A stretch of DNA of 46,773 bases from a virus. Positions 2,896 to 35,671 of this stretch are shown piece by piece. Position numbers and translations under genes: made by a program. The stretch spans positions 1 through 46,773 of the IMG/VR virus record IMGVR_UViG_3300009130_000050, one strand, 5' to 3'. How positions within the stretch are numbered: the stretch's first letter is position 1; the number at the start of each line of letters is the position of its first letter. The notes below the pieces were generated by a model. That model was not told the DNA's origin, searched no databases, and was given only the letters and a program-made list of their open reading frames with translations.

Positions 2896-3098
2896 ATAAA
2901 GACGAGGATCCTCTTACAAAATTTACAAACGAGTTAATTTCTTTATACACTCGTTGGCAGATGGAGAGTGACCTTGTGAAGGAAGAGATGCTGGTGGCCA
3001 CGGAAGACGCCCTTACGGTCATAAACGGAGAGGTCATGATATGTTTCCCTCCGGATAACGACCTACTGAACTGGTGGTCTGAAAACGAAGACTTGTGA
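2886..3098 (+). CDS. Small acidic protein of unknown function
   Basis: A 70-residue, strongly acidic protein (MELNKDEDPLTKFTNELISL...) whose start lies 10 bases inside the preceding gene and whose stop overlaps the GTG of the next, typical of a coupled phage operon. It contains one probable amphipathic helix (about residues 10-35) and an acidic, Trp-containing C-terminus (LNWWSENEDL). I recognise no family. Its position in a short operon with the K-[SA]-[SA] protein and the 3095 gene suggests a shared morphogenesis or chaperone-like role; this is inference only. Confidence 0.55.
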   Translation: MELNKDEDPLTKFTNELISLYTRWQMESDLVKEEMLVATEDALTVINGEVMICFPPDNDLLNWWSENEDL

Positions 3099-3643
3099 AG
3101 TTGGACCGAAAAGAAGTTTTTAAAGCATTATCCGATGATGCTACATACGGTACTACTGCGCATGTTATAGCTCTAGGTACTTTCGGAGACGACATATATG
3201 ATATGGATCCTCTGGAGTTATTCATGAATTTAGAAGACGAGTATAAAGTAGAAATGTCTGAAGATGTCGCTGAGAAATTACAGGCCATACTTTTAGCAAC
3301 TACTACTGCCGCTTTCTTCGAGGACCCGGTAGCATTTCGTGCAATAGCCAACACATTGTTGGAAGGAGATCCGGGGTTCGATGGTTTCGATAATGTTACT
3401 ATACCTGAAGTTCTATGGTCTATATATGAGGTAGAGCTTAATCATGAGGGTACTGAATTTGCACCTGCAGTTGCAGCTCTAATAAATAAAGAGATAGACG
3501 ACGAAGGAGAGGATGTAGACACCTTAGATGAGGCCATGCATTCCTCATACCATCAAAGGGCCGTGAGGGCGCTTAGAAAAGAACTGGAAGAGCAGCTGGC
3601 AGCAATAGGCGTAGACGACTTTGCACTGCCTGAAGTAGACTAG
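3095..3643 (+). CDS. Acidic protein of unknown function
   Basis: A 182-residue acidic protein with a GTG start overlapping the stop of the preceding gene (GTGA). It is predicted mostly helical, contains an Ala-rich stretch (KLQAILLATTTAAFFEDPVAF) around residue 70, and ends in an acidic tail (DDFALPEVD). No membrane segment or catalytic motif is visible and I recognise no family. It is the last gene of the 1143-3643 block; 18 bases after its stop lies the first copy of the promoter-like element that precedes the tmRNA. Confidence 0.6.
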   Translation: MKLDRKEVFKALSDDATYGTTAHVIALGTFGDDIYDMDPLELFMNLEDEYKVEMSEDVAEKLQAILLATTTAAFFEDPVAFRAIANTLLEGDPGFDGFDNVTIPEVLWSIYEVELNHEGTEFAPAVAALINKEIDDEGEDVDTLDEAMHSSYHQRAVRALRKELEEQLAAIGVDDFALPEVD

Positions 3644-3661
3644 CAATAATAGTCTTGATTG

Positions 3662-3696
3662 TGCTATATATACTTGATTAGGATTTGTACCTAATC
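3662..3696 (+). promoter_or_regulatory. Phage promoter-like element (copy 1) plus hairpin, upstream of the tmRNA
   Basis: TGCTATATATACTTGA at 3662-3677 matches three other copies in the window (consensus TG[TC]TATATATA[TC][TC]TGA). It is followed by a perfect 7-bp inverted repeat, GATTAGG (3676-3682) and CCTAATC (3690-3696), then a T-rich stretch and the tmRNA 5' end at 3708. No sigma-70 -35 box lies at normal spacing, so a phage or alternative sigma factor is likely if it is a promoter. The hairpin plus T-run could also terminate transcription of the upstream operon. Confidence 0.6.
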
Positions 3697-3707
3697 GTTC
3701 TTTTTAT

Positions 3708-4110
3708 GGGGGTGACATGGATTCGATTGACGATCTAGTTCCTGCCAAAACACCAGCGGGGGATGAGTACTTGGCCTCCTTAACAATGTACTTACGCTAT
3801 GACCTGGCGAGTCTCACGACGATAAGGTTGTTGTTTTCGACGCTCCCTTGGCTTTGGCCAAGGCTGCCTGATCGAAGGCAACAAATCGCGCACCAGAGGA
3901 GTCTATAAAGCTGGGGCGATTTCCTTAGGCTCCAACCAGCCCTGACAAGCTTGCAATTCCGGACAGGGTCTAAAATAAAACGGAAACGATCGACTGAAAA
4001 TCTTTTGCTACTTAGATTCGAAGTTTAAACTCTAAAGTAGATATGCTGGTAAGACCTGGATTGGCAGGCAAGACGTTAAGACCCGGGTTCGACTCCCGGC
4101 ACCTCCACCA
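3708..4110 (+). ncRNA. ssrA: tmRNA (transfer-messenger RNA)
   Basis: This is a complete one-piece tmRNA of 403 nt. The 5' acceptor strand GGGGGTG (3708-3714) pairs with CACCTCC (4100-4106), including the G3-U wobble that alanyl-tRNA synthetase reads; discriminator A and an encoded CCA end it at 4110. TGGATTCGA follows the 5' strand as in bacterial tmRNAs. The T-arm is CCGGG-TTCGACT-CCCGG (4083-4099). CCTGCC (3741-3746) and GGCAGG (4063-4068) form part of helix P2. The tag reading frame ends GCT TTG GCC AAG GCT GCC TGA (3851-3871), giving a tag close to SHDDKVVVFDAPLALAKAA; the resume codon, near 3806-3814, is not certain. It would rescue stalled ribosomes and tag the product for proteolysis. 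It sits just downstream of promoter-like element 1. Open frames through it are spurious. Confidence 0.93.
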
Positions 4111-4144
4111 CTTCAATCAAACCTATAATAAGAAAGGAAGATTT

Positions 4145-4417
4145 ATGAATGAAGGAACAGACGTCACTCGCCTTTCGGATCTATCTCCGAAATGGCGTCA
4201 ACTTCCTCATATCAAAGTTGCTCTTAAAGAGCACTTGAAAGATATGATGGAAGCACTTGAGAGGGAGGATTCCGAACTCCTTCTCAAAGAAGCTACCGAT
4301 ACCATGTTGGTGCTTCAGGCATTCTTGGATCAGGAAGATCCGAGAAAAACTGTGGAAATGTGTGCTATACGTTTCCTCAAGTTCGAGTCAACTGGGTCAT
4401 TACCCCCGTTGGCTTAA
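4145..4417 (+). CDS. Small helical protein downstream of tmRNA
   Basis: A 90-residue protein. I chose the ATG at 4145 because AAGAAAGGAAGA lies just upstream; the longer in-frame extension would run through the tmRNA. The sequence is largely helical (PHIKVALKEHLKDMMEALE...) with no recognised domain. It is separated from the following gene by 177 non-coding bases that contain a tRNA-like fold. Codon choice begins to shift here towards the host-like pattern seen in the next gene. The function is unknown; position suggests expression from the same promoter as the tmRNA. Confidence 0.7.
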   Translation: MNEGTDVTRLSDLSPKWRQLPHIKVALKEHLKDMMEALEREDSELLLKEATDTMLVLQAFLDQEDPRKTVEMCAIRFLKFESTGSLPPLA

Positions 4418-4452
4418 CTGCTTAATGGGGAGTAGCGCCCCCAAAACTTTCC

Positions 4453-4525
4453 CCCCTGTAGCTTAAAACTAGTTAAAGCCCTCCAGTGCACGGGAGGAGA
4501 TTCCAGTATTTAATCTGGACAGGGG
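4453..4525 (+). other. tRNA-like cloverleaf in the 177-base gap between two genes
   Basis: The gap can fold as a cloverleaf. A perfect 7-bp acceptor-like stem forms between CCCCTGT (4453-4459) and ACAGGGG (4519-4525). Position 4460 is followed by a D-like arm GCTT/AAGC (4461-4464 and 4476-4479). An anticodon-like stem CCTCC/GGAGG (4480-4484 and 4493-4497) has an 8-nt loop, and a T-like stem CCAG/CTGG (4503-4506 and 4515-4518) has an 8-nt AT-rich loop. It lacks a canonical T-loop, a 7-nt anticodon loop with T33, and an encoded CCA, so it is not a normal tRNA. It could be a decayed tRNA, an mRNA leader structure, or an RNA partner of the downstream IS110-like protein. Confidence 0.45.
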
Positions 4526-4594
4526 ACTATTTCGCTAAGTCGTCTTTGAACGGCTGATTCAACAAGAACCCAAAATAAGGAAAGGGTAACTGAT

Positions 4595-5926
4595 ATGGAA
4601 GAAGAAGGAGAAGAAATGTTCGCAACTGCAGATGCGGACGAAACAGTAATGGATGAAACTGCGGACGAGGTCAGGTATGGCCTCGAAGACGAGCCTTGGT
4701 ATATGCGTGAGGTTCGTATGACTCTGGAGGAAGAGCTGCACGACGTCGATGTCGACGTTGTGACAAGAGCTGTCGAAGCTCTTTCTCAGATGTCCGGTAA
4801 CGGCCAGGCTGTACAGATCTGTGAGAAGATCAGTATGCCGAAGCTCGTTAACGAAGATGTCAAAAAGGCAGCAGAGGAGCTGGACCTGGATTCAACCAGG
4901 TTCTTGGTAGCGATGTACTACCGGTTCCAGAAGGCTCGCATGGCCTTCGACCAGCAGAAGAAGCACTTGAGCGAGGAAGCTCAGGGTAACCTCTGCGTGA
5001 CCGGATTCTCCAAGCTCTCGAGCAGCTGCGAGAAATTCGTCCACAGCATCATGGATCACTACTGCACGGTCCATCCCGTACTGAAGTGGTGTACGGCAAA
5101 CGTCGGGGTTGGTCCCGTTCTGTCGGCCGGACTCCTGGCTCACATTAGGATTATCGGAGACAACGGGCAGGTTGTTTGCCCGACTGCCGGACATATCTGG
5201 AGCTTCGCAGGCTGGGATCCCACTCGTAAGTGGATCTCTGCTAAACAGGGTCAAACGGCCCTGAAGAGACATGGGTTTGACCCGGGCTCGTTAAAGAAGG
5301 TTCCGAGAGAAACCATGCTTCAGATCGTAGAAGACCTTGGAGGAGATTCCAGGATCTTATTCGGCTTGAAGAACGCAGAAGTGGTCAAAGCCAAGGATCT
5401 CTATAACACCATTGTGAAGCGGCCCTTCAACGCAGAATTCAAGAAGCTCTGCTGGAAAGTTGGCGTGAGCTTCAAGAACACCTGTAACTCAGTGGATAAA
5501 CTAGGGGAGCGTTCCTACGGTACTATCTATAAGGAGCGCAAGGAAATGGAGACCCGGAAGAACGAGAACGGAGATTATGCTGACATTGCCAAAGACTTGG
5601 CAGGTACTGTAGGTGCTACCACTCATGCCCATAAGCACTACTCGGAGGGTCGCCTTCCCCCTGCTCACATACAGGCCAGGGCTCAGCGTTATGCAGTCAA
5701 GATTTTCTTGGCTCATTTGCACGAGGTAATGTTCCGGTACTACGTAGGAGAAGAACCTCCTCGTCCTTACCCGATCATCCATCAAGGACACGCTCACGAG
5801 ATCCGGCCGTTCGTACCGACCAAGATCGAAGAACTCGACGACTTCATTGCGGAGCAGGCCGTAAAGCAAGCTGCAAGGCAAGCTGCCAAGAAAGCTGCCA
5901 AGAAAGCTGCGAAGAAGTCTGATTAA
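4595..5926 (+). CDS. IS110-transposase C-terminal-domain (Transposase_20-like) protein
   Basis: This 443-residue protein matches the C-terminal half of IS110-type transposases: GVGPVLSAGLLAHI (about residues 171-184) is a helix-hairpin-helix like the family's PGIGPxTAAxLLAEI, followed by IWSFAGWDPTRKW and, later, a helical ARAQRYAVKIFLAHLH segment. The N-terminal RuvC-like DEDD nuclease domain of IS110 enzymes is absent; residues 1-130 are acidic and helical instead. The C-terminus is a basic AAKKAAKKAAKK tail. I infer a nucleic-acid-binding protein rather than an active transposase. GGAAAGG precedes the ATG. Isoleucine codons are about 13 ATC, 6 ATT and 1 ATA, opposite to the ATA-rich neighbours, pointing to recent transfer or selection for high expression. 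The strong terminator at 6008 follows. Confidence 0.75.
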   Translation: MEEEGEEMFATADADETVMDETADEVRYGLEDEPWYMREVRMTLEEELHDVDVDVVTRAVEALSQMSGNGQAVQICEKISMPKLVNEDVKKAAEELDLDSTRFLVAMYYRFQKARMAFDQQKKHLSEEAQGNLCVTGFSKLSSSCEKFVHSIMDHYCTVHPVLKWCTANVGVGPVLSAGLLAHIRIIGDNGQVVCPTAGHIWSFAGWDPTRKWISAKQGQTALKRHGFDPGSLKKVPRETMLQIVEDLGGDSRILFGLKNAEVVKAKDLYNTIVKRPFNAEFKKLCWKVGVSFKNTCNSVDKLGERSYGTIYKERKEMETRKNENGDYADIAKDLAGTVGATTHAHKHYSEGRLPPAHIQARAQRYAVKIFLAHLHEVMFRYYVGEEPPRPYPIIHQGHAHEIRPFVPTKIEELDDFIAEQAVKQAARQAAKKAAKKAAKKSD

Positions 5927-6007
5927 GAAAAAAAATCTGGACAGTATGTCTAATTTTGAGTACGGCTTGTTTTGTCTTTAATTAGACACAAACTAGACTG
6001 AACAAAA

Positions 6008-6054
6008 GGGAGTTGTCGGCGGCAATAAAAACCGCCGGCAACTCCCCCTTTTTT
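6008..6054. terminator. Strong bidirectional intrinsic terminator
   Basis: A 15-bp arm at 6008-6022 (GGGAGTTGTCGGCGG) pairs with 6032-6046 with one G-T wobble around a 9-nt loop, followed by T6 at 6049-6054; the AAAA before the left arm gives a short U-run for the opposite strand. It lies between the convergent ends of the IS110-like gene (plus) and the terminase gene (minus), as expected for a shared terminator. A second inverted repeat, TGTCTAATT/AATTAGACA (5947-5955 and 5980-5988), lies just upstream. Confidence 0.85.
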
Positions 6055-6067
6055 CGCTATCAGTGCG

Positions 6068-7924
6068 TCACATAGAAAAAGCTTCAGGTATTCCGTGTAT
6101 AGATGTGCCTCCCATATGTCCAGTAGTTATGGAACGCTTCATCCTTTCAAGCAATCCTTTGTCCTGGACTATGTTTTCCTGAAGAAACACACGTCCGACT
6201 ATGTATGCAAAATTGACCGCATGCAGTATGTCGTCAGACTTTGCCCCGTGCTTTCTGTATAAGAACCCAGTAGAACCACCCGGAGTTTCAGAAGGTACAC
6301 GTATCATGTTAAGAAAGTCTGACAAGTAAGAAGATATCTTTTCTCCGTTATGGTAAAATTCCCAGTCATAAGTTCGTATCCGGGATTGTCTGATAGCGTA
6401 GTATAAAGCTGTTATGGACTCCGTGCGATTCAGATTGTACATATTAAACAAATTAGGACTCTCCTTAAGGATATCTGTATTGGGTCCTCCGTATTTGAAT
6501 ATAAGGTTATTTTCTGGAGCCATCCTTTCACGCAAAAGCATATTGTAGGCGTATCCTACTCCGTAGTCAGCGCCTAACGCCATGCCGTTGTACTTATTGT
6601 GATGGTGTATTATGTCATCCGCTATGACTGGATACGACATACCCTCATAGCGCTTCAAATGTATTAACTCGAAGGAGTAGTCATGGTTAAGTCCTAGGAT
6701 TACATGTACTGTGTAAGATAGCTTGGTCTTGTTAGAAGTGTCATAGTCTGAACCTCCCCAGTCGCATCCTGAAAACACTCCCATGTATCGACCTTCTTGC
6801 GCTTTAGACTCATATGGCTCGGATTCTGACCCTAGTATGCATATACGCCTAAGATCTCCTTCTGTAATTTCTCTCTCTCCTTCTTGAGTGGGTATACCTA
6901 AGTTTTCTTGAAAAAATTTACGAGGATCTTGCTCGATTTTCTTTCTATATATTTCCTCCCACCGAATTCTGTTGTTAACCACAGCAGGTACGATCAACTG
7001 AGGTATATGGAAACCTATCTGCCCAAGCTTGAATTTGTGCTGGTCCAAGTGTTCAAAGTGACCTTTCTTGACGTCAAGTAAAGCACCGCACTTGGCACAG
7101 GACACTCCCTTTATCTGTATCATGTCCATAACACCGTGCTCAGGAGTGGGTATGTTGTCATGATTGCAAGAGTCACACCGCATGACCCAGACTCCTTGAG
7201 ACGAGCTGGAATACTTCTCTTCTAGCGCAGTATCAGTAGTGAGAGATGTGCCTGCGTAGAAAGTCACGGGATTGGAAGAGGCACTTTGAATTTCAGAAAC
7301 TTCGGGCTCGAATGTAGGATCAAAATTCTGATACTCGTCAAAGAGCAGCTCATCCGCAGATTTACCACGAATGTTAGATACCTGAGTGTCTACGTTAAAT
7401 AACTCGACACGCGATCCATTAGGGTACTCTTTTAAATAAAGATTCTGTCTGAACTTGTAGCTCTGTACGGGCATTCGAAAAGCCTGCTCTAGCTCTTTGA
7501 GCTTATTTGCATAAGTTTTCATTTGTTCGCTTTTGGGAGCTATATACAAGCTAGAAAACTTTGGTATTATGTGAGCAAACATTCTTTGCCTGGCTGCCAT
7601 AGTAGTAGATTTGGCTATCTGCCTACTCCCTCTTACCACCATGTACCCCCCTACATTAAGCGCCATTAAATGAAACGCATAAGGGAAGTTAGACAAAGTC
7701 ATAGGGTCATTCTTGGGGTAGGCTGGATAATAGTACGATAACAAGAATGAGGGGTTGTATTTACAATGACGTAACAGTAACTTCAGGGTGTCCTGGGCGC
7801 TTTCAAAATACTTGGGGCTTTTCTCAGCTCGCTCTGATAGGTGTTGAAATTCTCTAGTTAACCTTATAAGCTTATCTCTAAACTGTCCGTCAGTGCGTAC
7901 GGTATGTTCTAAATCAAAATACAT
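6068..7924 (-). CDS. terL: Terminase large subunit
   Basis: This 618-residue protein is the DNA-packaging motor. The ATPase domain shows a Walker A-type GSRQIAKST at residues 99-107 and Walker B LLFDEY at 193-198. Two C-x2-C pairs (Cys250/253 and Cys276/279) form a probable zinc knuckle inserted after the ATPase core. The nuclease domain has GCDWGGSD (Asp388), GADYGVG (about 448) and SDDILHAVNFAY (about 575), the usual three acidic clusters of RNase H-fold terminase nucleases. Length is typical. It is alone on the minus strand, converging on the shared terminator at 6008, and its start codon is 1 base from the divergent 7926 gene, so its promoter must lie inside that gene. No small terminase gene is recognisable nearby. 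Confidence 0.92.
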   Translation of the reverse strand: MYFDLEHTVRTDGQFRDKLIRLTREFQHLSERAEKSPKYFESAQDTLKLLLRHCKYNPSFLLSYYYPAYPKNDPMTLSNFPYAFHLMALNVGGYMVVRGSRQIAKSTTMAARQRMFAHIIPKFSSLYIAPKSEQMKTYANKLKELEQAFRMPVQSYKFRQNLYLKEYPNGSRVELFNVDTQVSNIRGKSADELLFDEYQNFDPTFEPEVSEIQSASSNPVTFYAGTSLTTDTALEEKYSSSSQGVWVMRCDSCNHDNIPTPEHGVMDMIQIKGVSCAKCGALLDVKKGHFEHLDQHKFKLGQIGFHIPQLIVPAVVNNRIRWEEIYRKKIEQDPRKFFQENLGIPTQEGEREITEGDLRRICILGSESEPYESKAQEGRYMGVFSGCDWGGSDYDTSNKTKLSYTVHVILGLNHDYSFELIHLKRYEGMSYPVIADDIIHHHNKYNGMALGADYGVGYAYNMLLRERMAPENNLIFKYGGPNTDILKESPNLFNMYNLNRTESITALYYAIRQSRIRTYDWEFYHNGEKISSYLSDFLNMIRVPSETPGGSTGFLYRKHGAKSDDILHAVNFAYIVGRVFLQENIVQDKGLLERMKRSITTGHMGGTSIHGIPEAFSM

Positions 7925-33593: not shown

Positions 33594-34700
33594 ATGAGTA
33601 AGAACATAAGAAAAGACAATCCGCTAACGGAGCGTAAAATGCTTCAAAAAGCACGTGAGTCCAATGAGGCTGCTAGGTTACTGTCAGATGCTGACAAAAG
33701 TCCTGGTTTGAAATTAGCCGTACCGGAGGATAATAAAAAACCCAAAGGTTTGTTCGTATGGGCATTGGGACTGTCTGCACTAACTGTAGCAGGATGCGCT
33801 GCTTTTTTCAGCGTACGAGGAATCAGCTTGCTGTTTGCAGGGTCTATGGCGGCAGTAGTAGTAATGGCTACGGGATTGGAATACGGTAAGCTTGTAGCCG
33901 CAAGTTATTTATACAGGTATTGGAGTAAAACTACTCTTATGCTTAAGTCTTATCTTATAACAGCAGTCGTAGTGCTTATAGGAGTAACGTCCCTTGGTAT
34001 ATACGGGTTTCTCAGCGACGCTTTTGAAAAAACTAGGACAGCGGTAGCTCTCTACGAAGAAAACATACTAGCTTTGGAGAAAGAGAATACTTTTCTCTAC
34101 AAGCAAATAGAATCTTCGGAAAACTCTGTGGACCAAGTTTCTGAGAAAGCTGACAGCGCTATAGAAAGTTATAAAGATATATATGACGACTTTATATCCC
34201 AGCAGAATGATCGCAGAGATGTTTTGATTTCCAGGAGAAACGAACTCGACGCCTCTGTTGCCGAGCTTGAGGCTAGCCCAGGTGGTCTATTCAGCAGCAA
34301 GAAAAAAAGAGTTGAGGAGCTTAAAACTTCTCAATCTCAAGAGCGCTCTTCCATAAGGGAATCTCTAAACGAGATAGAATCTCAGAATAAATCCGAGTAT
34401 GATTCTTTCTTAGCTAAAGTTAAAGCCTACAGAGACCGTAGTGAAGACGCAGCAGACAGCTTTGACGTAACCGAAGTTCGGTCCAAAATAAGCTCTAACA
34501 ATAACTCCATACTTGCGAACAAAGAGCTCATATCCAATACTGACATAGGTAGCTTTAAGTTTATAGCCACGGCTTTTGACGTTCCTCTGGATAACGTAGT
34601 CAAGTGGTTTATACTATGCATCGTCCTAGTCTTTGATCCTTTGTCCGTGACACTTGTTCTTGCATACAACGTCGCCCTGAAAAATGAAGAAGACAAATGA
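33594..34700 (+). CDS. Multi-pass membrane protein with long coiled coil
   Basis: A 368-residue protein. I chose the ATG at 33594 because ATAAGGAGGAATTAGAG lies directly before it; the ATG at 33507 would add 29 residues without such a site. Three membrane segments (about residues 53-72, 77-95 and 119-138) are followed by about 180 residues of charged coiled coil and a fourth segment near the C-terminus (WFILCIVLVFDPLSVTLVLA). The topology places the coiled coil on one side of the membrane. I recognise no named family; it may act in virion assembly at the membrane, infection-complex anchoring or defence. It overlaps the next gene by 4 bases. Confidence 0.7.
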   Translation: MSKNIRKDNPLTERKMLQKARESNEAARLLSDADKSPGLKLAVPEDNKKPKGLFVWALGLSALTVAGCAAFFSVRGISLLFAGSMAAVVVMATGLEYGKLVAASYLYRYWSKTTLMLKSYLITAVVVLIGVTSLGIYGFLSDAFEKTRTAVALYEENILALEKENTFLYKQIESSENSVDQVSEKADSAIESYKDIYDDFISQQNDRRDVLISRRNELDASVAELEASPGGLFSSKKKRVEELKTSQSQERSSIRESLNEIESQNKSEYDSFLAKVKAYRDRSEDAADSFDVTEVRSKISSNNNSILANKELISNTDIGSFKFIATAFDVPLDNVVKWFILCIVLVFDPLSVTLVLAYNVALKNEEDK

Positions 34701-35671
34701 CTAAAGAAGCTTATTCCTATTCCGATATTTACCTTGTGCCGGCTATGTCGGTATTGAAAAGTCGATCAGATGCATGTACTACCGTAGAACTTGGAGCCAA
34801 CAGGTTCAAGCTTCCTGTAATACCTGCAAATATGAAGTGCGTAATATCTTCGGATCTGGCTAAGTGGTTTTCGCAAAACGGGTATTTTTATTCAATGCAC
34901 AGGTTCGATGTAGATCCGCTTGAATTTTGTAAAAGAGCCCGAAAAGAGGAATGGACGACTTCTTCTATTTCTCTCGGCATAAAAGATTTTGAAGGTGTTG
35001 TTTACGATCAGCTTGTAAAGTCTGTCCTGTCGGGAGAGTCTAAATTAGACTATGTCACTATAGATATAGCGCATGGTCATACTGAGTGCATGAGGAGAGT
35101 ACTTAGGATCATTAAATCCGATCTGCCGAAAGTCTTTACCATTGCAGGTAACGTAGCTACTTCGAGAGCTGCTATGGATCTAGAGAGATGGGGTGCTGAT
35201 GCCGTTAAATGCGGTATAGGAGGCGGTGCTGCTTGTAGTACTCGATTTAAGACTGGGTTCAATGTTCCTATGTTTTCTTGTGTTCAAGATTGTTCCAGGG
35301 GGGTGCACGTACCTATAATAGCCGATGGAGGTATAGTACAGAATGGAGATATAGCCAAAGCTTTGGTAGCTGGAGCCAGTATGGTTATGTGCGGGGGTAT
35401 TTTTGCGTCTTGTAAAGATAGTCCTACGGAGTATGTAGAAGACGATTTGACTCTGTATGGTTATAGGAAAATATACTACGGATCTGCAAGTGAAAGGAAC
35501 AAAGGTTACAACCGTCACATAGAGGGTATGGAGATATCCGTAGACGGAAATGGCATGACTTATGAGCAAAAGCTTAAAGAGATAGAAGAAGATATAAGTA
35601 GTGCGATTAGCTATGCAGGAGGAACGGATCTTGAAGCTTTTTCCGGAGTTGGTTATAATTTTCGCAGATAG
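34697..35671 (+). CDS. GMP reductase / IMP dehydrogenase-like enzyme
   Basis: This 324-residue TIM-barrel enzyme shows the IMPDH/GMPR family motifs: [10 protein letters not shown]-like start, [12 protein letters not shown] (about 119-130), [11 protein letters not shown] (149-159), the active-site loop [12 protein letters not shown] with Cys180, PIIADGGI, and the phosphate-binding [21 protein letters not shown]. No CBS domains are present. The overall length and lack of CBS insertion fit GuaC-type GMP reductase (GMP + NADPH to IMP + NH3 + NADP+), although IMP dehydrogenase remains possible. Placed inside the virion-gene block, it may adjust guanine nucleotide pools during infection. All expected loop residues look intact, so it is probably active. 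Confidence 0.85.

Follow-up and report, generated by a model that had tools for sequence, protein, structure and literature searches.

Phages are known carriers of tmRNA genes, as an earlier note on the DNA analysed here had stated of a few of them, and 402 of 18,146 phage genomes are reported to bear one (PMC9004378). Full-length tmRNAs are described from huge phages (PMC7162821) and mycobacteriophages (PMC4131195, PMC3029335), and the phages listed with ssrA include the mycobacteriophages Bxz1, Catera, Wildcat and others, together with Bacillus phage G (PMC4131195). The tmRNA of methylophage Melnitz is described as permuted, two-piece and associated with a glutamine riboswitch, and it has been proposed to keep or redirect host translation (PMC9004378). 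A stripped form is the TLD-only tmRNA of mycobacteriophage DS6A (PMC4131195, PMC11915505); a DS6A-like TLD-only molecule is reported to be a strong inhibitor of tmRNA in both the charged and the uncharged state, an effect that may come from titration of SmpB (PMC4131195, citing Mao et al. 2009). In the literature consulted, which included little from subscription journals, the TLD-only forms found in print were that of DS6A, a single phage, and plastid examples (PMC4131195, PMC11915505).

The stretch of DNA considered here, hereafter the window, is a single linear virus record 46,773 bases long, in which a complete phage-encoded tmRNA had been read from the letters at positions 3708–4110. These coordinates proved exact: the Rfam model RF00023 matches the plus strand of 3708–4110 with 84.4 bits (E = 2.1e-31) against a curated cut-off of 47 bits, and the match covers the whole model (positions 1–374) without truncation. 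Its parts are assigned as follows.

3708–4110, plus strand: full-length tmRNA (ssrA) gene.
3708–3714, plus strand: 5′ strand of the acceptor stem, GGGGGUG with G3; 7 of 7 pairs with 4100–4106, G3-U70 included.
3758–3793, plus strand: pseudoknot 1 (GGGGG/CCUCC and GAGUAC/GUACUU; 5 of 5 and 6 of 6 pairs).
3806–3871, plus strand: tag frame GESHDDKVVVFDAPLALAKAA with stop codon UGA and resume codon GGC at 3806, placed by the spacing from pseudoknot 1 and by alignment.
3828–3884, plus strand: helix 5, within which the tag frame ends; 13 of 13 pairs, largely present in the minimum-energy fold.
3883–4040, plus strand: region able to form pseudoknots 2–4; the stems can be drawn, with a knot number not above that of shuffles.
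4083–4110, plus strand: T arm, 3′ strand of the acceptor stem and encoded CCA; 4080–4110 is identical in several viral tmRNAs.

The tRNA-like domain has the GGAUUCGA D loop and a T arm with 5 of 5 pairs, and both the G3-U wobble and the encoded CCA named in the earlier note were recovered, the latter as ACCA at the 3′ end. What identifies the gene is the covariance-model match together with this domain, and not fold energy or pseudoknots 2–4: the whole RNA folds with a free-energy z-score of only −1.54, 7 of 100 shuffles being equally good, and a mechanical finder sees no fewer disjoint knots in 49 of 200 shuffles. ARAGORN, which is a usual tmRNA detector and not a defining feature, misses the gene even at a lowered score threshold; such misses are common, because it calls only 84 of 119 viral and 99 of 118 bacterial loci with a tmRNA 3′ end, among the matches listed. 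The window gene is confirmed as a real, full-length, one-piece phage tmRNA gene, and as such it is one new example among the full-length phage tmRNAs already known.

Like the tmRNAs of Bxz1, Catera, Wildcat and phage G, the window RNA is phage-encoded, but it belongs to a different phage group, its 21-residue tag starts with Gly, and neither the tmRNA nor half the window had a nucleotide match in INPHARED. It likewise differs from the two-piece Melnitz tmRNA in being one-piece, and Rfam found no glutamine-riboswitch-like element with it. No close relative was found in the searches made; ten viral contigs share its 5′ end, and the four of these called by ARAGORN carry other tags. In global alignment, the nearest tmRNAs all stand near 60% identity, three of them viral (L046, L059, L018) and three from Puniceicoccales/Opitutia (L185, L294, L282). 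Some of the one-piece Opitutia/Puniceicoccales tmRNAs (L282, L185, L242) share with the window a Gly resume codon and a style of tag (GESNVISFEPELEALAA; ...MSKAA), whereas the identity to them is at most about 60% in global alignment and the Rfam score is much lower, lying below that of every cellular Opitutia-class tmRNA among the matches listed (131–193 bits). A score this low for a full tmRNA, an unseen promoter and a fold no better than shuffles would suit a decaying passenger, that is, a host-derived, non-functional copy retained by chance. Nevertheless, such a copy is quite improbable, because the acceptor stem with G3-U70, the T arm, the CCA end, pseudoknot 1, the resume site and an open tag frame have all stayed intact, and they have done so in a sequence distant from all other tmRNAs found.

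A tmRNA resume site is marked by a pseudoknot 1 about 12 nt upstream and by an A at position −4. Both marks accompany the GGC at 3806, which is separated from the end of pseudoknot 1 (3793) by a 12-nt spacer and preceded by ..ACCU, with A at −4, and which falls near the resume positions of L185 (GGC) and of L018 and L046 (both GCT) in an alignment of ten tmRNAs. A covariance model had been suggested as the means of fixing the resume codon; since the model's alignment does not display the tag region, the frame was set instead by pseudoknot 1, the 12-nt spacer, the A at −4 and the tmRNA alignment. The resulting tag of 21 residues (3806–3868) ends LALAKAA, as the ending ...ALAKAA read beforehand had it, and the stop codon UGA (3869–3871) lies in the loop of helix 5. 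Inspected by eye, this alignment also points to a start too far downstream in the tags given by ARAGORN for L046, L059 and L073. A further ARAGORN tag, ADINWKGRYLHTRKIFFI, assigned to L067 (9179–9589, minus strand) and L110 (3524–3934, minus strand), looks misplaced.

The tag had been called unusual, with the suggestion that it may redirect rescued proteins to different host proteases. In a tag survey, one tmRNA 3′-end pattern retrieved at least 119 viral and at least 118 bacterial loci, to which tags were assigned by ARAGORN; the survey is coarse, because viral contigs may include prophage pieces with a host tmRNA and because some ARAGORN tags are misplaced. Among the matches listed, 33 of 50 distinct viral tags end in LAA versus 38 of 60 bacterial ones, on which count an avoidance of LAA ends by viral tags as a class was rejected. 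The proportions also speak against an alternative reading in which the phage tmRNA outcompetes that of the host and swaps in a tag less readable by ClpXP-type proteases, thereby sparing or altering truncated phage proteins. In keeping with such a swap, the window tag ends AKAA and not ALAA, and odd ends (LVA, TVA, KAA) do occur among viral tags; however, KAA also ends 2 of the 60 distinct bacterial tags among the matches listed, and the window tag is Opitutia-like, so that the swap appears unlikely and the claim of redirected proteolysis is weakened. The comparison with tags of candidate hosts came out divided: the window tag resembles tags of Opitutia (Verrucomicrobiota), namely GESNVISFEPELEALAA (L282), GENNIVEFAPQGELMAA (L242) and the SKAA-ending tags of L185 and L243, but it is unlike ANEELALAA, the commonest tag in the best 30 of the tmRNAs from 188 Opitutia-class genomes. 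The resemblance hints at an Opitutia host for the phage, which it would not prove.

The contig as a whole carries terminase, SbcCD-like, helicase, primase, DNA polymerase and other phage families, and the tmRNA occupies a slot that is bounded and filled by the following genes.

3095–3643, plus strand: conserved phage gene forming the upstream border of the cargo slot, 58–70% identical in L002, L132, L133 and L134.
4145–4417, plus strand: open reading frame of 90 residues in the same cargo, without a family over the cut-off.
4595–5926, plus strand: Tas protein of the TIGR-Tas kind, 443 residues, in the same cargo (NF052498, 132.6 bits against a cut-off of 100; phrog_4285, 4.3e-27).
6068–7924, minus strand: terminase large subunit forming the downstream border of the slot (phrog_675, 1.2e-37), 63–70% identical in four relatives.

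A search of IMG/VR with the terminase returned four relatives at 63–70% identity, and the same four were returned by two-phage and five-phage terminase profiles; the terminase profile matched none of 11 other records bearing a tmRNA or a mini-tmRNA. A homologue of the 3095–3643 gene stands beside the terminase in all four relatives, and the content in between varies from fewer than 100 bp (L134) to one ORF of about 320 residues (L133) or an ORF of 93 residues (L002), the window slot holding the tmRNA, the 90-residue ORF and Tas. Because both flanks are syntenic with the relatives and the content between them differs, the tmRNA is taken as phage cargo. Virus records of this kind come from metagenomes and may be fragments, which leaves room for cellular DNA misjoined to a phage contig or for a host ssrA picked up where the phage had integrated; yet the slot is enclosed by homologues of the flanking genes in the four relatives, and no integrase occurs among the 29 window proteins searched, so that the probability of this reading is close to nil. 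On the same absence, together with phage-syntenic flanks, the reading as a leftover of phage integration at the ssrA gene of a host was rejected. In having a tmRNA and no integrase found, the window resembles methylophage Melnitz (as described in PMC9004378).

The larger gene of the pair that the earlier note had remarked downstream of the tmRNA (4595–5926) is this TIGR-Tas-type RNA-guided protein. It bears a Lys/Ala-rich repeated tail (5864–5916), no TIGR-like repeat array was seen within 3640–6070, and a search for viral relatives of the protein gave nothing useful. The name IS110 transposase, after the title of one weak PDB match, was rejected in favour of the NCBIfam assignment to TIGR-Tas. 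Elsewhere in the window, a GMP reductase gene is found at 34697–35668 on the plus strand (NF003966, 348.5 bits against a cut-off of 344), and four viral loci (L018, L025, L067, L110) have a homologue of it close to a tmRNA.

The promoter that had been ascribed to the tmRNA is not supported. A scan of both strands of 3400–4700 gave no sigma-70-like site, where 1.5 are expected by chance, and a sigma-70 promoter of its own was rejected; the host may use other promoters. A terminator-like hairpin at 3675–3697 is not above chance (2 terminators found against 1.3 expected). A very strong hairpin (z −5.7) with a T run, at 6001–6053 where the Tas and terminase genes converge, is likely a two-way terminator.

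The RNA gene, its parts and its place in a phage genome are established. As for its function, the most probable explanation is that a full-length, one-piece tmRNA is carried as cargo of a tailed phage beside the terminase and serves the host-assisted rescue of stalled ribosomes; from these features, we infer its transcription, charging, tagging and benefit in the following manner. The window tmRNA would most likely be transcribed during infection and charged with alanine by the host AlaRS. SmpB is absent from all five records searched (the window and the four relatives, all of which may be fragments), so that host SmpB would be needed if the RNA works, and would be loaded onto it. The RNA would then rescue ribosomes stalled on broken mRNAs and add its tag to the rescued proteins; since the tag resembles host-type tags, the proteolysis of tagged proteins would probably be left to host proteases. 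The benefit to the phage would be more rescue capacity during the degradation of host and phage mRNAs.

A different arrangement is found in a relative, phage record G003 (167 kb), whose terminase is 70% identical to that of the window. No full tmRNA was found in this record, and its sole tmRNA match to RF00023 has 71 nt and 60.3 bits (L135:1501–1571, minus strand, corresponding to G003 105004–105074). This mini-tmRNA consists of an acceptor stem with G3-U70, a D loop, a short helix 2 with a small loop, a T arm and CCA, and nothing else, thus being a complete tRNA-like domain without a tag domain. Its fold z-score is −3.85, equalled by 0 of 200 shuffles, and its minimum-energy fold is not tRNA-like. 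The mini-tmRNA stands away from a slot of the window type, at 105 kb versus a terminase near 163 kb. The closest named parallel is the TLD-only tmRNA of DS6A, likened here by its description (PMC4131195, PMC11915505), whereas the window RNA is full length. A relative with the tRNA-like domain alone, and the inhibition of tmRNA reported for a DS6A-like molecule (PMC4131195), make it conceivable that the window RNA, too, mainly titrates host SmpB or ribosomes in the manner of a TLD-only RNA, its tag frame being incidental; that is very unlikely, however, because pseudoknot 1, the resume site and the tag frame are kept, all of them superfluous in a titrating RNA.

Mini-tmRNAs of this kind extend beyond G003. 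A pattern in which both ends of the tRNA-like domain lie 12–42 nt apart, with CCA, matches 44 viral contigs and none in a collection of 84,980 prokaryote species with one genome each; the collection does respond to a tmRNA pattern, at least 118 stretches having been retrieved with another one, which supports the zero. Without the CCA requirement, 102 viral contigs carry 70 distinct sequences of 64–84 nt, 49 of them long and 21 short; this wider pattern refers to viral contigs alone, and the zero in prokaryotes to the CCA-ending pattern. In 29 CCA-ending minis, 98.3% of cells are paired versus 71.6% in shuffles, with a covariation score of 0.732 versus 0.168 that is reached by 0 of 500 shuffles, and all six helix 2 pairs show changes on both sides; the overall number of pairs with both-sided changes, 11, does not exceed that in shuffles (317 of 500). 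Across all 70 minis, helix 2 is paired in 464 of 490 cells versus 235.7 ± 11.6, and the acceptor pair 5:68, which the pattern leaves free, forms a standard pair in every one of the 70 and occurs in all four Watson-Crick types. Much of the acceptor and T-loop sequence is imposed by the pattern and therefore proves nothing there. The class is shown to exist in phages and to be under structural selection.

A covariance model built from the 29 CCA-ending minis (R1) scores 61.6–84.3 bits on all 58 mini loci outside the building set, which were found by a related pattern and are therefore no independent discovery, and nothing above 43.1 bits on the 118 bacterial tmRNA loci among the matches listed; the line between minis and others, about 50 bits, was chosen after the scores were seen. 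The G003 mini-tmRNA, whose sequence is among the 29, scores 71.3 bits, with other matches in the same search at 34.4 bits or less. Moreover, R1 recovers minis missed by the pattern, namely 11 with another D loop at 52.8–56.4 bits among the 119 viral loci (among the matches listed), one of 112 nt in L126 at 56.7 bits and another in G219. A second type of mini, which combines the D loop AUUGGUAAGC with an inner hairpin, occurs in L042, L051, L082, L095, L033, L083, L061, L037, L069, L111 and L116, nine of these eleven sequences having been read. A search of 177 Opitutia-class genomes with R1 was empty; it had no internal positive control, and R1 finds the G003 mini-tmRNA elsewhere. In INPHARED, no place covered 80% of a mini query, and ten candidate places scored at most 34.4 bits with R1.

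The carriers of these RNAs are tailed phages of several kinds, judging from their genes. When 28 proteins from mini contigs, chosen by size or by proximity to the mini, were compared with PHROGs, 3 of 28 were without a family, and the contigs were found to encode terminase (L155, L148, L147, L144, L171), portal (L385), major head protein (L350), head protease (L390), DnaB helicase (L164, L340) and exonuclease (L342, L348, L363, L169), among other products. The 103 mini loci (102 contigs, G003 counted twice) fall into 24 protein-linked sets, one of which comprises 68. Nine of the 70 distinct minis overlap an upstream ORF by a single base, the final one of its stop codon (e.g., L342:2048–2130, L348, L363, L164, L385), so that a cut at the 5′ end would strip the stop and leave the mRNA non-stop; a parallel is the smpB-ssrA overlap reported for Carsonella (PMC4131195). 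An inner hairpin of the form A-R-R-CC(N3-7)GG at positions 28–39 is present in 27 of the 49 long minis versus 7% of shuffles, and it may possibly be a protein-binding site.

Both forms occur together in record G219, which carries a full tmRNA (L018, 1302–1677, minus strand) with the tag ANNIVRFEDFTACGEELALAA and a mini-tmRNA (L407, 1501–1573, plus strand). This is the one record with a mini among 35 picked from the full-length and 5′-end sets, and none of 21 large mini records searched has a second RF00023 match over the cut-off; the records are fragments, and the absences therefore weigh little. The window and G003 use one tool each and G219 uses both, a distribution that suggests a strategy of 'block the host's system, run our own'. 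The chances are about even for a joint reading in which phages regularly target trans-translation, either through a full replacement tmRNA or through a TLD-only mini that would block host tmRNA-SmpB, and in which the minis make up a class of phage-borne RNA that is widespread. The blocking role of the minis is assigned by analogy and may apply; a blocker and a replacement in the same lineages would suggest that phages take over ribosome rescue.

Taken alone, the window RNA is one more phage tmRNA, at a clear locus. The comparison between the window and G003 matters more, because one lineage has a full tmRNA and, in a relative, the stripped domain of the type reported as a blocker, and minis occur in many tailed phages. 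This comparison makes the role of phage tmRNA directly testable: the mini-tmRNA would halt tagging by the host, and the full RNA would replace it.
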